Shown piece after piece: positions 2,322-58,610 of a stretch of 64,000 nucleotides of DNA. The notes under the pieces are model-generated. The model was not told where the DNA came from and did not search any database. It saw only the letters and a program-made list of their open reading frames with translations. Position 1 is the first letter of the stretch, and each line of letters starts with the position of its first letter. Source of the DNA: Streptomyces spiramyceticus (GTDB lineage: Bacteria; Actinomycetota; Actinomycetes; Streptomycetales; Streptomycetaceae); NCBI RefSeq assembly GCF_028807635.1, contig NZ_JARBAX010000001.1, positions 4,451,501-4,515,500 of the forward strand. Direction: 5' to 3'. The position numbers and the translations under genes are program-made.

Positions 2322-4508
2322 GTGACAGCAGCAACGCACTCCTCTCTTTTCCCGCAGGTCCCCGACTCGGCGGACGCGGTGCTCGAAGGGCTCGACCCCG
2401 AGCAGCGCGCGGTCGCGACGGCCCTGCATGGTCCGGTGTGTGTGCTCGCAGGAGCCGGCACCGGCAAGACGCGCGCGATCACGCATCGCATCGCGTACGG
2501 CGTGCGTGCCGGGATACTGCAGCCCGCCAGTGTGCTGGCTGTCACCTTCACGAACCGCGCCGCGGGGGAGATGCGCGGCCGGCTCCGTCAGCTCGGCGCG
2601 GGCGGCGTCCAGGCGCGGACCTTCCACTCCGCCGCGCTACGCCAGCTCCAGTACTTCTGGCCGAAAGCAGTCGGTGGCGAGCTGCCGCGGCTCGTCGAGC
2701 GCAAGATCCAGCTCGTCGCCGAGGCCGCCGCACGCTGCCGCGTCCGGCTCGACCGCAATGAGCTGCGTGACGTGACGGGCGAGATCGAGTGGGCGAAGGT
2801 CACGCAGACGGTCCCCGGCGACTACCCGGCCGAGGTCGCCAAGTCGAGCCGAGAAGCTCCCAGGGACGCGGCGGAGATCTCTCAGATCTACGCCATGTAC
2901 GAGCAGCTCAAGCGCGATCGAGCCATGATCGACTTCGAGGACGTGCTGCTGCTCACCGTTGGCATCCTCCAGGACCGCCACGACATCGCCGACCACGTGC
3001 GCAGCCAGTACCAGCACTTCGTGGTCGACGAGTACCAGGACGTCAGCCCGCTCCAGCAGCGGCTGCTCAAACTGTGGCTCGGCGACCGGCAGAGCCTGTG
3101 CGTCGTCGGCGACGCCAGCCAGACGATCTACTCCTTCACCGGCGCCACCCCCGACCACCTGCTGAACTTCCGCACCGAGCACCCCAACGCAACCGTGGTG
3201 AAGCTGGTCCGCGACTACCGCTCGACCCCGCAGGTCGTCCACCTCGCCAACGGCCTGCTGAACCAGGCGCGCGGCCGCGCCGCCGAGCACCGGCTCGAAC
3301 TGATCTCCCAGCGCGAGGCGGGCCCCGAGCCCGTCTACACGGAGTACGCCGACGAGCCCGCCGAGGCCGAGGGCACGGCCCGCCGCATCCGCGACCTGAT
3401 CGCGGCGGGCGTCCCGGCAAGCGAGATCGCCGTGCTGTACCGCATCAACGCCCAGTCTGAGGTCTACGAGCAGGCCCTGGCCGACGCGGGAGTGCCCTAC
3501 CAGCTGCGCGGCGCCGAGCGGTTCTTCGAGCGCCAGGAGGTGCGCAAGGCGATCGCAGGCCTGCGCAGCGCCGCCCGCTTCGGGGACAACGACCCGCTGC
3601 TCGACGACGTCGTGGACCTGCCCTCCCAGACCCGCGCCGTCCTCAGCGGCAACGGCTGGACCACGCAGCCCCCAGCGGGCTCCGGCGCCGTCCGTGACCA
3701 GTGGGAGTCGCTCGCGGCACTGGTCCGCCTCGCGGAGGACTTCGCGAAGGCCAGGTCGGCAGCGACGCTCTCCGACCTTGTCGCGGAGCTCGACGAGCGC
3801 ATGGCCGCCCAGCACGCGCCCGCCGTCCAGGGCGTAACGCTCGCCTCGCTGCACTCGGCCAAGGGCCTGGAGTGGGATGCCGTGTTCCTGGTCGGCCTCA
3901 CCGAGGGGATGATGCCGATCACCTACGCCAAGACCGACGAGCAGGTCGAGGAGGAGCGGCGCCTGTTGTACGTCGGCGTGACACGGGCCCGGCTCCACCT
4001 GGGCCTCTCCTGGGCACTGTCCCGTTCACCCGGCGGCCGCGCATCCCGCCGTCCGAGCCGCTTCCTGAACGGGCTGCGCCCCGGCTCCTCAATCCCCGGC
4101 AGCCGGTCCGCCGGCGGCGGCGGTGGAGGCATCGAGCGCGGCAGCGCCACCGGCGCCACCAAGCGGGGGCGTCGGCGCTCGGCCCTGTGCCGGGTGTGCG
4201 GCAAGACCCTCACCGAGGCCGGCGAGGTGAAGCTGATGCGCTGCGAGGACTGCCCGTCCGACATGGACGAGGCGCTGTATGAGCGGCTGCGCGACTGGCG
4301 CGCTGTCCAGGCGAAGGACCTGGGCCAGCCCGCGTACTGCGTCTTCACCGACAAGACGCTGATGGCGATCGCCGAGGCGGCACCGGGCGAGGCGGGAGAA
4401 CTGGCCGTCATCTCAGGTGTCGGCGCCCGGAAGCTGGAGCGTTTTGGAGCCGATGTGCTGGCTCTCTGCACAGGTCAGGAGCCTGGAGGAGCCGACGAGG
4501 AGGACTGA
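2322..4508 (+). CDS. uvrD2: UvrD/PcrA-type superfamily 1 DNA helicase, UvrD2
   Basis: A 728-residue 3'-5' SF1A helicase. The GTG at 2322 is chosen as start; the same frame is open far upstream but that part overlaps other genes. Motifs in order are Walker A GAGTGKT near residue 44, motif Ia AVTFTNRAAGEM, Walker B DEYQD, motif III GDASQTIYSFTGA, LHSAKGLEWDAVF, and motif VI RRLLYVGVTRARLHL. After the helicase core come a Cys pair (CRVCGK) and a second pair (CEDCPSDM), then an HRDC domain (ALYERLRDWR to SGVGARKLERFG). A tetracysteine plus HRDC tail is the hallmark of actinobacterial UvrD2, where the tetracysteine links helicase to HRDC. Likely role: DNA repair and replication-associated unwinding. 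Confidence 0.94.
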   Translation: MTAATHSSLFPQVPDSADAVLEGLDPEQRAVATALHGPVCVLAGAGTGKTRAITHRIAYGVRAGILQPASVLAVTFTNRAAGEMRGRLRQLGAGGVQARTFHSAALRQLQYFWPKAVGGELPRLVERKIQLVAEAAARCRVRLDRNELRDVTGEIEWAKVTQTVPGDYPAEVAKSSREAPRDAAEISQIYAMYEQLKRDRAMIDFEDVLLLTVGILQDRHDIADHVRSQYQHFVVDEYQDVSPLQQRLLKLWLGDRQSLCVVGDASQTIYSFTGATPDHLLNFRTEHPNATVVKLVRDYRSTPQVVHLANGLLNQARGRAAEHRLELISQREAGPEPVYTEYADEPAEAEGTARRIRDLIAAGVPASEIAVLYRINAQSEVYEQALADAGVPYQLRGAERFFERQEVRKAIAGLRSAARFGDNDPLLDDVVDLPSQTRAVLSGNGWTTQPPAGSGAVRDQWESLAALVRLAEDFAKARSAATLSDLVAELDERMAAQHAPAVQGVTLASLHSAKGLEWDAVFLVGLTEGMMPITYAKTDEQVEEERRLLYVGVTRARLHLGLSWALSRSPGGRASRRPSRFLNGLRPGSSIPGSRSAGGGGGGIERGSATGATKRGRRRSALCRVCGKTLTEAGEVKLMRCEDCPSDMDEALYERLRDWRAVQAKDLGQPAYCVFTDKTLMAIAEAAPGEAGELAVISGVGARKLERFGADVLALCTGQEPGGADEED

Positions 4509-4521
4509 TTCAAACTCGTCG

Positions 4522-4561
4522 AAAAAATAGTTTGCGCATGCCCCAGGAATCCCCATAGGTT
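4522..4561 (+). promoter_or_regulatory. WhiB7/WblC-type autoregulated promoter of the wblC leader
   Basis: An A/T run AAAAAAT (4522-4528) lies 3 bp upstream of a -35-like TTGCGC (4532-4537). An 18-bp spacer separates it from a -10-like TAGGTT (4556-4561). WhiB7 regulons are recognised by an AT-rich tract directly upstream of a primary-sigma -35 element. The tract stands out in this GC-rich DNA. Transcription would begin near 4568, leaving a leader of about 570 nt before wblC. Confidence 0.8.
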
Positions 4562-4678
4562 CTTAACCACGGCAACAGCGACTTCTCTGAAGCGCTGTTT
4601 CCGTGCTGTACTCATCCGAATACGTAGGGACCGGCCCCGGCCATCAGGTCCCCGAGACGCCGAGAGGAGGCGAGCCCA

Positions 4679-4984
4679 GTGACCAGCTTCATGAACTTCA
4701 CCAAAATGACCGATCGCTCGGTCGTCGCCACCTGCCCGCTCGGCTCCTCTCTCCGTGGCACCGGTCTGTCCGGCATTTCCGCCGTCAGCCTGGCGTCTCT
4801 CGCGAGCCTCCCCGTGTCGCCGCGCAATGAGCGACCGACTGAGGCACCGGAAGCAGCAGTAGCAGCGGCACAGGCAAGGGCCTATGCCTTTGCGGCAGCC
4901 GGTGCCGGATCCATGAAGCAGACGACGCAGCACCACACGATGTGGGCCTTCCGTGGGCCTGAACCCTGGAGTGATCCAGCCTGA
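4679..4984 (+). CDS. Upstream ORF in the wblC leader (probable regulatory uORF)
   Basis: A 101-residue ORF with a GTG start at 4679 and a good ribosome site GAGGAGG 8 bp upstream. It lies inside the wblC transcript leader, between the WblC-type promoter and a strong hairpin terminator. The N-terminal part is Ser/Thr/Leu-rich, the middle is Ala-rich, and the C-terminus HHTMWAFRGPEPWSDPA is rich in aromatic residues. No enzyme domain is recognisable. whiB7/wblC genes are known to be controlled by uORF translation combined with transcription attenuation, so this ORF is probably a translation sensor. Ribosome stalling would favour read-through into wblC. Whether the peptide has a separate function is unknown. 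Confidence 0.72.
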   Translation: MTSFMNFTKMTDRSVVATCPLGSSLRGTGLSGISAVSLASLASLPVSPRNERPTEAPEAAVAAAQARAYAFAAAGAGSMKQTTQHHTMWAFRGPEPWSDPA

Positions 4985-5005
4985 TTCGCTCAGGCAGGCG
5001 CCTTC

Positions 5006-5051
5006 AGGGCCGCGGAACCCCACCAGGGATCCGCGGCCCTTCTGTTTGTCC
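5006..5051 (+). terminator. Attenuator-like intrinsic terminator in the wblC leader
   Basis: Perfect 11-bp stem AGGGCCGCGGA (5006-5016) / TCCGCGGCCCT (5030-5040) with a 13-nt loop, followed by the T-rich TCTGTTTGT. It starts 21 nt after the uORF stop codon and ends about 90 nt before the wblC start. A terminator here can only serve to stop the leader transcript, as in uORF-mediated attenuation. Two small hairpins at 4966-4979 and 4979-4995 overlap the uORF stop and could couple ribosome position to folding. Confidence 0.8.
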
Positions 5052-5139
5052 CGAACGGGAGAGACAGAGCGAAGGGCCTCGGGACAGCAACCGCCAACCG
5101 GCCAACCGGCCGGAACGATCAGACGAGGAAACAGCCACC

Positions 5140-5508
5140 GTGCAACTCGAAACGCACGCCCCGTCCGTACCGCCTTCCCAAACGATCACCCCGCCCGGTC
5201 TCACGGAGGACCCCGCCTTGACCCCCCTCACTGCGCTCACCGCGCTCGACGACGCCATCGAGAACCTCGGCGTGCCCGTCCCCTGCCGTTCCTATGACCC
5301 GGAGGTCTTCTTCGCCGAGTCGCCGGCCGATGTCGAGTACGCCAAGTCGCTCTGCCGCACCTGCCCGCTGGTCGAGGCCTGCCTCGCCGGTGCGAAGGAG
5401 CGCCGCGAGCCCTGGGGTGTCTGGGGTGGCGAGCTCTTCGTCCAGGGTGTCGTCGTCGCCCGCAAGCGTCCGCGTGGCCGCCCGCGCAAGAACCCGGTCG
5501 CGGCATGA
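5140..5508 (+). CDS. wblC: WhiB-family iron-sulfur regulator WblC (WhiB7)
   Basis: 122 residues, GTG start at 5140 with GAGGAA 9 bp upstream. The Wbl domain has four cluster-binding cysteines C49, C72, C75 and C81 (C-x22-C-x2-C-x5-C), then the GVWGGE turn near residue 90. The C-terminus carries an AT-hook, RGRPRK (residues 112-117), which separates WhiB7 orthologues from other Wbl proteins. WhiB7/WblC binds the primary sigma factor region 4 and, through the AT-hook, the AT-rich tract at target promoters. It activates resistance genes when translation is inhibited. The gene's own promoter shows that tract, so autoregulation is expected. It overlaps the next gene by 4 bp. Confidence 0.95.
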   Translation: MQLETHAPSVPPSQTITPPGLTEDPALTPLTALTALDDAIENLGVPVPCRSYDPEVFFAESPADVEYAKSLCRTCPLVEACLAGAKERREPWGVWGGELFVQGVVVARKRPRGRPRKNPVAA

Positions 5509-5828
5509 ACGCCATCGGAACCATCGATCGACCCCATACGCACGATCCCAAGAAGCAGGACCCGATGAACCCTTCCGCCCGTGAGCCCATCGGCTCCGCT
5601 ACCCCCGACGTCACCACCACCGGCGCGAATGACTCGCGTCAGAACAGGACCCGCGAGATGCAACTCATTCCAGAAGCCCTGGCTCGTGCCCATATGCAAG
5701 AACGCAGGCGTGAAGCCGAGGCGGAACACCAGGCCGTGCGCCTGATCGCCGCCCGGCGGATGCAGCGCCGTGCCGAGCGTGTGTCGCTGCGTGCCCGTCG
5801 CGCTCTGGCCATGGCGGTCATGCAGTAG
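5505..5828 (+). CDS. Small basic protein translationally coupled to wblC
   Basis: A 107-residue protein of unknown function. Its ATG at 5505 overlaps the wblC stop in an ATGA arrangement, so it is probably translated by re-initiation. An internal ATG at 5565, with GCAGGA upstream, is an alternative start giving 87 residues. The N-terminal half is Pro/Thr-rich and probably disordered. Residues 50-107 form a strongly charged helix rich in Arg, Ala and Glu. I recognise no domain. The tight coupling suggests a role in the antibiotic response or in modulating WblC, but that is inference. A 15-bp hairpin terminator follows. Confidence 0.68.
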   Translation: MNAIGTIDRPHTHDPKKQDPMNPSAREPIGSATPDVTTTGANDSRQNRTREMQLIPEALARAHMQERRREAEAEHQAVRLIAARRMQRRAERVSLRARRALAMAVMQ

Positions 5829-46725: not shown

Positions 46726-46850
46726 GCATCCGGTTCGGTCGAGCCGGATGCGCCGTCGGCAGGTGGTCGGACTCCTGGGTGCGCGAAAGCACACCGATCA
46801 CACCGTTGCGGGACAGTTCCGGATTCGCACCGGATTCCCCTGCGGCGACA
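46726..46850 (-). promoter_or_regulatory. Cobalamin (B12) riboswitch in the nrdA leader
   Basis: On the minus strand the conserved core GGTGCGAATCCGG (about 46822-46834) is followed by AACTGTCCCGCAACGGT. The B12 box CCAGGAGTCCGACCACCTGCC lies at about 46759-46779. P1 pairs 46751-46754 with 46844-46847 and P2 pairs 46759-46763 with 46839-46843, so the aptamer is compact at about 100 nt. An 8-bp hairpin (46726-46733/46744-46751) right after P1 is a candidate expression platform. The ribosome site of nrdA is about 130 nt further on. B12 is expected to repress nrdAB. Confidence 0.92.
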
Positions 46851-58394: not shown

Positions 58395-58610
58395 ATGTGC
58401 AGGTAAAAAGCTTCCTCCCTCCCCGCACAGGAGGGCGGAACGAGGCACCGGTCGCTCTCTGCCCTGACTGCGTACCGGTACCTCTGTCGGCCGCGCGGGA
58501 CCGCACATCCGCCGGCCTGAGTAGCTCCGGGCTGCGGTGCCGGCAGGGCTGAGGGTCCCTGCCAGGCGCCGCGGCCATGGGGTCGCCCGAGCGGCGGTAC
58601 GCTCGCACAC

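Follow-up and report, generated by a model that had tools for sequence, protein, structure and literature searches.

WblC/WhiB7 turns on a large intrinsic resistance programme in actinomycetes, and the wblC locus of Streptomyces spiramyceticus raises the question of how the RNA ahead of the gene settles whether transcription stops or continues into it. A 64,000-nucleotide stretch of the genome (hereafter the window, to which all positions refer) was analyzed. The original prediction, made from its letters alone, described an antibiotic-responsive attenuator composed of an autoregulatory promoter, an upstream open reading frame (uORF) and a terminator, and proposed that the switch may be a matter of ribosome position only. 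The attenuator is supported here and is published for orthologues; the purely positional switch gives way to a predicted antiterminator with compensatory change across the class. With a probability of roughly 0.88, the leader is a ribosome-controlled transcription attenuator of wblC, in which an early stall yields the antiterminator and hence read-through. The parts of the leader, their conservation, the predicted pairings and the covariation were computed here.

Organization of the wblC locus

The end of a helicase gene, the promoter, a uORF of 101 codons, an intrinsic terminator and wblC follow one another on the + strand, with wblC downstream of the UvrD-like helicase gene:

to 4508, + strand: 3' end of the UvrD-like helicase gene (ORF translation and Pfam)
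4521..4561, + strand: WblC-type autoregulated promoter, GAAAAAATAGT-TTGCGC-N18-TAGGTT (sequence and conservation)
4679..4984, + strand: uORF, GTG 4679 to TGA 4984, 101 codons, ending MWAFRGPEPWSDPA-stop, 25 rare codons
5006..5047, + strand: intrinsic terminator, stem 5006-5020/5026-5040 with one mismatch, T-rich tail 5040-5047
5140..5508, + strand: wblC (WhiB7 orthologue), 122 aa (Pfam Whib, E 1.8e-14; RGRPRK near the C-terminus)

The downstream gene was identified as WblC/WhiB7 by its Whib domain and as the best of seven matches of the wblC protein query in the 7.08-Mb genome. The RGRPRK stretch near its C-terminus is of the kind called an AT-hook. The 101-codon uORF of the original prediction is real and lies in a long leader, its GTG preceded by the ribosome site AGGAGG at 4665-4670.

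Comparisons within the genus used the best 80 of 577 relatives, named Streptomyces. A wblC match was present in 147/147 genomes of the order (E <= 1e-15) and 209/246 of the class (E <= 1e-18), and 40 upstream regions from the order and 60 from the class were chosen for divergence; with the window and the 80 Streptomyces loci these make 181 loci.

Promoter and 5' leader

The predicted autoregulatory promoter, an AT tract plus TTGCGC-N18-TAGGTT, is present at 4521-4561, where the AT tract GAAAAAAT (4521-4528) is followed by the -35 element TTGCGC (4532-4537), an 18-nt spacer and the -10 element TAGGTT (4556-4561). The WblC consensus of S. coelicolor, in the available part of its source, reads GAAAWY-N3-TKGMNN-N16-19-TANNNT, and most starts of WblC promoters lie 7-8 bp downstream (PMC7157823); transcription is therefore expected to start near 4568-4569. 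The window promoter fits the consensus except in the hexamer 3 nt before the -35 element, AAAAAT, which has 5/6 letters of GAAAWY; an AT-rich motif 3 bp ahead of the -35 element and a TANNNT -10 element, as expected of an autoregulatory promoter, are both there. The form AAAA..T-N3-TTGC-N16-19-TANNNT was found upstream in 80/80 Streptomyces loci, a stricter pattern run on shorter slices in 43/81 loci, and a loose pattern in 15/15 other-order and 40/60 other-class loci.

Three hairpins lie between the expected start and the uORF:

4568..4605, + strand: hairpin H1 at the 5' end, CACGG...CCGTG with inner CTTC.GAAG (predicted folds)
4627..4653, + strand: hairpin H2, GGGACC...GGTCCC (predicted folds)
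4658..4672, + strand: CGCC-GAGAGGA-GGCG (CGCCGAGAGGAGGCG), the uORF Shine-Dalgarno in a small hairpin (conservation)

Among 44 aligned Streptomyces leaders (45 were chosen and L124 was dropped), the five outer pairs of H1 are kept in 36-43/44 and the four inner pairs in 29-39/44, and one outer pair changes from C-G to U-A. In 33/44 leaders the H2 stretch can form a perfect stem of 5 bp or more, with varying letters and an arm that is not always the same. H1 and H2 largely keep their shape while their letters change. The 15-mer CGCCGAGAGGAGGCG is exact in 103/106 Streptomyces leaders examined, and this hyperconserved Shine-Dalgarno hairpin could tune initiation on the uORF.

The intrinsic terminator

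A Rho-independent terminator with a perfect 11-bp stem and a T-rich tail had been proposed between the uORF and wblC, and it is confirmed at 5006-5047: the stem 5006-5016/5030-5040 is continued by an A.A mismatch and a CCC/GGG extension, and the tail is TTCTGTTT. A simple terminator scan with allowed loops of 3-8 did not list the hairpin, presumably because the loop of the 11-bp stem, taken alone, measures 13 nt. The terminator pattern occurs once in the 7.08-Mb genome and so does a backwards control pattern; the pattern alone is therefore not significant, and it is the conservation that is. When no pattern filter was applied, the highest-ranking T-tailed hairpin of the final 480 nt was found to hold the core GCCGCGG...CCGCGGC in 172/181 loci, so the stem is kept in relatives, a point on which the original prediction hung. 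The exceptions are L079, L132, L175, L185, L192, L202, L207, L209 and L215, of which L209 holds the core by pattern. The pattern itself matched 174/181 loci; the seven without it (L132, L175, L185, L192, L202, L207, L215) were left out of pattern-based counts and examined separately. The 71-row alignment described below was rejected as sole evidence for terminator invariance, since its rows were selected by a pattern that requires the core, and the unfiltered 172/181 is used instead. A strand that pairs with two partners in turn would explain this near-invariance of letters.

No leader copies were matched on plasmids and phages. A terminator pattern on a metagenomic viral contig (L218:2440-2470) was dismissed by eye as an ordinary look-alike: the ORFs on either side are unrelated, and the listed stretch shows none that is WhiB-like.

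A predicted antiterminator in the uORF tail

The original prediction reported no perfect antiterminator partner for the terminator. A partner is predicted in uORF codons 88-95, which can pair with the 5' arm of the terminator and its flanks:

4942..4963, + strand: antiterminator 5' strand A1, GTGGG-cc-TTCCGTGG-g-CCTGAA, uORF codons 88-95 (predicted folds)
4964..4971, + strand: A2, CCCTGGAG, 10 nt before the uORF stop (predicted folds)
4979..4995, + strand: hairpin P1, GCCTGA...TCAGGC, over the uORF stop codon, at the apex of the antiterminator (predicted folds)
5003..5023, + strand: antiterminator 3' strand, TTCAGG-g-CCGCGGAA-c-CCCAC, overlapping the terminator 5' arm (predicted folds)

At transcript end 5024, A1 (4942-4963) and 5003-5023 are predicted to form 19 pairs that enclose P1. 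From transcript end 5028 the outer five of these yield to local pairs and 14 remain. In transcripts that begin at 4925, the central antiterminator pair has a probability of 0.99-1.00 at ends 5018-5032 and of 0.61 at 5034, and from end 5036 onward the terminator fold dominates. At transcript end 5048 the terminator fold (-60.1) and the antiterminator fold (-51.9) are ~8 kcal/mol apart. Since the terminator is favoured at full length, the antiterminator must be a kinetic product, and kinetic trapping is needed. In most relatives A2 is the upper strand of the antiterminator, and the window uses an alternative register.

The duplex of the native uORF tail with the terminator 5' arm (-34.4 kcal/mol) is stronger than the best of 70 other 48-nt uORF windows (-23.1) and than 992/1000 dinucleotide shuffles, 8/1000 reaching its energy. 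Of the synonymous recodings of the tail, 617/1000 pair at least as strongly as the native one; the peptide and the high GC therefore explain the strength, and the codons are not selected to maximise it. The terminator 5' arm pairs upstream in 99/105 Streptomyces, 15/15 other-order and 51/54 other-class loci, as do 34-50% of shuffles, and mean fold energies lie below those of shuffles by 2.2, 5.0 and 2.6 standard deviations, respectively. Both halves of the antiterminator, nested, are predicted in 105/105, 14/15 and 50/54 loci (169/174; the failures are L152, L162, L163, L165 and L198), compared with 161/420, 40/180 and 280/648 shuffles (22-43%). With these shuffle rates, and with recodings equal to the native tail, the idea that pairing of the 5' arm is significant by itself was rejected. 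Pairing strength alone is weak evidence, and the case for the antiterminator rests on covariation and conserved geometry.

Covariation and geometry across the class

Outside Streptomyces the uORF tail differs, and folds of the printed loci, judged by eye, mostly repeat this architecture as GGG..UUCCGC..CCUGGAG opposite CUCCAGG.CCGCGGAA.CCC, a hairpin across the uORF stop forming the cap. The suggestion that the switch depends on the species is thus weakly borne out: letters and register vary, but the architecture is predicted in 169/174 loci.

Covariation, proposed as a check in the original prediction, was examined in a structure-blind alignment of 71 sequences, made up of 9 of the 106 window-plus-Streptomyces rows and the 69/75 non-Streptomyces rows with the terminator pattern, minus those dropped for want of a stop or partner (L130, L162, L165, L172, L193, L208, L211). 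Compensatory changes are seen: 69 antiterminator cells show two-sided change, against 39.1 +/- 5.0 in shuffled alignments, and 0/500 shuffles reach as many. Pairing is found in 74.9% of antiterminator cells, against 71.7 +/- 0.4% in shuffles, and falls to 53.4%, 47.0% and less in versions displaced by one, two or three columns; the displaced versions score no higher than 0.110 for covariation, where the undisplaced one scores 0.196. Counted by pair instead of by cell, two-sided change (12 vs 11.2) is unremarkable, 214/500 shuffles being as high, and the number of further pair types is borderline (38/500 shuffles). With a slide of -3 columns the control reaches the same 69 two-sided cells, but its pairing is down to 31.2% of cells. 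Even in the absence of structure, related sequences can score above shuffles, and in A2 the Streptomyces rows are shifted by one column, so that the count is lowered. In the same test 94.8% of terminator cells pair and two-sided change is 18 vs 3.5, in rows that were partly chosen for the terminator. Taken as a prediction with covariation, an antiterminator built from uORF and terminator sequence is present.

The loci examined separately point the same way in part. Altered terminator letters are matched by the uORF-tail strand in L192 (GGACC/GGUCC), L175 (UCUC/GAGA), L207 (GGGUCC/GGACCC) and L215 (GCGAUUC/GAAUCGC); in L202 the strand engages only letters that have not changed, and the pairing in L185 is irregular.

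The geometry relative to the uORF stop is conserved as well. One terminator-side column was fixed, and the spacing was measured between its partner and the first stop codon that follows in any frame (L162, L193 and L211 have no partner). It is 15 in 15/15 other-order loci and 14-16 in at least 39/51 other-class loci with a partner; among Streptomyces it is 16 in 89/105, 23 in 15 (the register of the window) and 13 in one. Given this near-constant spacing, CCUGGAG sits ~10 nt ahead of the stop, where a ribosome that has arrived there would cover it.

Rfam gave no match over the leader at gathering score, and the five sub-threshold matches in 4500-5200 are headed by one of E 0.23 on the minus strand. 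An arrangement largely kept across the class suggests an RNA family that is missing from Rfam 15.

Ribosome position and the probable attenuation mechanism

Folding with ribosomes at different uORF codons had been suggested as a check, and it separates two zones: the antiterminator survives ribosomes at codons 76-86 and is lost at codons 87-97. The ribosome was modelled with a 29-nt footprint and its P site at codons 76 onward, earlier codons not covering the tail. The antiterminator was kept at codons 76-86 (P 0.81-1.0), fell to P 0 at codons 87-97 and came to 0.06-0.31 at codons 98-99. At codons 100-101 or the stop, A1 is not covered in the window, and P is 1.0 if the helix may close around the ribosome and 0 if only RNA on its 3' side counts; termination with a ribosome there is assumed to need a helix that is unable to close around it. 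On this modelling, stalls should induce unless they fall within the last 15 codons, and a response to stalls in nearly any uORF codon suits a sensor of many drugs.

In the attenuator model, for which we infer ribosome occupancy, timing and read-through, RNA polymerase would start near 4568 and ribosomes would load on the uORF. Under free translation a ribosome would stand over codon 87 to the stop while the polymerase makes 5003-5040. This ribosome would mask A1/A2 and P1, or keep them off their partner, and the terminator at 5006-5040 would then form and end transcription near 5047. A stall caused by a drug or a shortage of charged tRNA in roughly the first 86 codons would leave the uORF tail free. 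P1 would fold over the stop and bring 4942-4963 onto 5003-5023 before the 3' arm of the terminator is complete. With the 5' arm captured, the polymerase would enter wblC, and WblC would activate its own promoter.

The C-terminal peptide of the uORF is itself conserved and might indicate a drug- or peptide-specific arrest at one defined codon, as in erm or tnaC leaders. Variants of MWAFRG-x-x-PWSDPA end the uORF in 80/80 Streptomyces loci and the window, so the conservation of the uORF in relatives, which the original prediction needed, extends to its C-terminal motif; W-S-D-P-A is present in most Streptomyces. Proline at position -2 is found in 81/81 Streptomyces uORFs, always as CCA, and in 56/63 uORFs outside the genus; Pro-Pro occurs in the last four residues of 50/63 of the latter set. 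Arrest at one codon is nevertheless quite improbable, as modelled stalls at any of codons 76-86, and by geometry also earlier, suffice, and a ribosome halted at the C-terminal motif would cover the antiterminator and thereby lower expression. Orthologues are moreover induced by many drugs and by amino acid shortage, according to parts of three papers (PMC12421871, PMC11550727, PMC13393426).

Still less probable is a model in which the place of the ribosome, or its uncoupling, alone promotes or prevents the terminator, with no antiterminator involved. A ribosome at the uORF end does overlap both P1 and A2, and at equilibrium the RNA folds into the terminator. A strong competing fold with covariation exists, however, and an early-stalled ribosome covers no part of the terminator, which without a competing fold should then form and preclude induction. 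Ribosome position still matters in the antiterminator-based attenuator, because it decides whether the antiterminator can form.

Peptide and codons of the uORF

The codons of the uORF set it apart from its neighbours. Rare codons, defined as those that make up <10% of the codons for their amino acid in window ORFs (a reference of long ORFs, some overlapping frames among them), account for 25/101 uORF codons in the window, compared with 12/122 in wblC and 63/738 in the helicase gene. The mean rare fractions across 80 species are 0.21, 0.073 and 0.055 (79 loci for the helicase). GC3 of the uORF is below that of the helicase in 78/79 loci, the helicase frame of each locus being the stop-free frame with the highest GC3, a choice that leans to high GC3. 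Among conserved degenerate columns, one codon is used in at least 90% of species in 43/50 for the uORF, 65/107 for wblC and 8/65 for the helicase end, and conserved rare columns number 9, 5 and 1, respectively. As for the cluster of regulatory codons that an amino-acid-specific attenuator of the ilv/trp type would have, placed so that stalling in it releases the antiterminator, alanine provides 19/101 uORF residues and GCA 7 of the 25 rare codons.

The constraint on codons, together with several conserved peptide motifs, could be read as the mark of a functional small protein, with attenuation a secondary role. We give this reading very little credence. The uORF peptide has no match in Pfam and NCBIfam, and its tail motif W-x-F-R-G, found in 21/25 further Streptomyces loci, is absent from the 75 others bar one chance match (L170) while the RNA architecture persists; the codon constraint, for its part, points to RNA or translation speed.

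A refinement of the ribosome-controlled attenuator, doubtful at present, is that the uORF serves as a tuned track for ribosomes. Proline near a stop codon slows termination. Conserved rare codons over the body of the uORF may slow ribosomes and let mild inhibition be sensed, and the penultimate proline (with Pro-Pro near the end in most other actinomycetes examined, in D-P-A-stop in Streptomyces) may slow termination and make a healthy ribosome dwell over A2 and P1 while the polymerase makes the terminator. If true, the track would set the basal leak and drug threshold of wblC/whiB7 throughout the class. Slow decoding is not the sole reading of the codon conservation, as some of these codons sit in RNA stems.

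Two further structures were noted inside the uORF. The hairpin GACCGATCGCTCGGTC at 4708-4723 (codons 10-15) retains a rare GAT codon and may be a sign of RNA structure in the early part of the uORF. The element GGCACCGG (4757-4764) is the exact reverse complement of CCGGTGCC (4899-4906); both are mostly conserved in Streptomyces and are candidates for a long-range pairing.

Equally little weight falls on Rho-dependent or translation-level control of wblC in place of intrinsic termination, for which nothing direct was found beyond a long leader that is ribosome-free past 4984, given the strong intrinsic terminator with a T-rich tail conserved over the class and the RNA-seq that, in the part available of its source, places attenuation in the leaders of two mycobacteria after the uORF, at the corresponding point (PMC4128351).

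Relation to known attenuators

The window leader is a well conserved member of a known system, the mechanism of which is already known; added here are the location of the antiterminator strands, their support by covariation and two testable refinements. It resembles leaders of the erm type in that an antibiotic-stalled ribosome would change the folding of the leader RNA. The erm-type leaders commonly free a ribosome site and need a drug-specific stall codon. Poulton 2024 reportedly describes mycobacterial whiB7 as sensing amino acids through uORF composition.

For orthologues, the literature, including portions of PMC11550727 and PMC13393426, describes induction by antibiotics, attenuation through the uORF, an antiterminator that shares sequence with both uORF and terminator, and autoregulation. 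In the available excerpts, translation of the uORF suppresses wblC (PMC11550727), WblC responds to many ribosome drugs and to amino acid starvation (PMC12421871), and a study of M. smegmatis gives the same outline of the attenuator (PMC13393426). Citing papers, in the portions available, credit the attenuation mechanism of a wblC orthologue to Lee, Lee and Roe 2022. The wblC/whiB7 attenuator of S. coelicolor and mycobacteria described there shares with the window the gene, promoter type, uORF, intrinsic terminator and kind of antiterminator, a likeness drawn from excerpts of the citing papers and not strand by strand; the species may differ. The covariation, stop spacing, penultimate proline and rare codons come from the present computation; Lee, Lee and Roe 2022 may also report them. 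With the likely competing strands known, and their arrangement kept from Streptomyces to distant actinomycetes with similar ribosome spacing, the switch can be tested strand by strand.

The ilvB1 attenuator of M. tuberculosis, as far as the accessible text of PMC13236596 goes, works likewise, a ribosome at the uORF stop giving the terminator and a stall the antiterminator. The ilv leader senses four defined regulatory codons (PMC13236596), whereas ~85% of the 101-codon uORF is the predicted sensing zone in the wblC leader. The Streptomyces ARE-ABCF leaders tiaA and are5sc also share a uORF, premature terminator, antiterminator and antibiotic induction in the part available of PMC12421871. Their uORFs (9 and 3 residues) cause stalling at the start codon (PMC12421871), whereas the long wblC uORF should sense any elongation block.

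Neighbouring elements of the window

The wblC stop codon is overlapped by a further ORF:

5505..5828, + strand: uncharacterised ORF of 107 aa, its ATG overlapping the wblC stop

The product has no match in Pfam and NCBIfam. The ORF is present in 80/80 Streptomyces loci with a mean identity of 76%, and the overlap with the wblC stop is kept in 80/80. From its arrangement it is a probable co-induced operon partner of wblC and a candidate member of the same WblC resistance response.

Two RNA elements of other kinds were noted further along the window. A partial match to a cobalamin riboswitch lies at 46769-46839 on the - strand (35.5 bits vs a curated score of 31.5), and the Streptomyces sRNA scr5239 is found at 58411-58569 on the + strand (Rfam RF02605, 128.9 bits).
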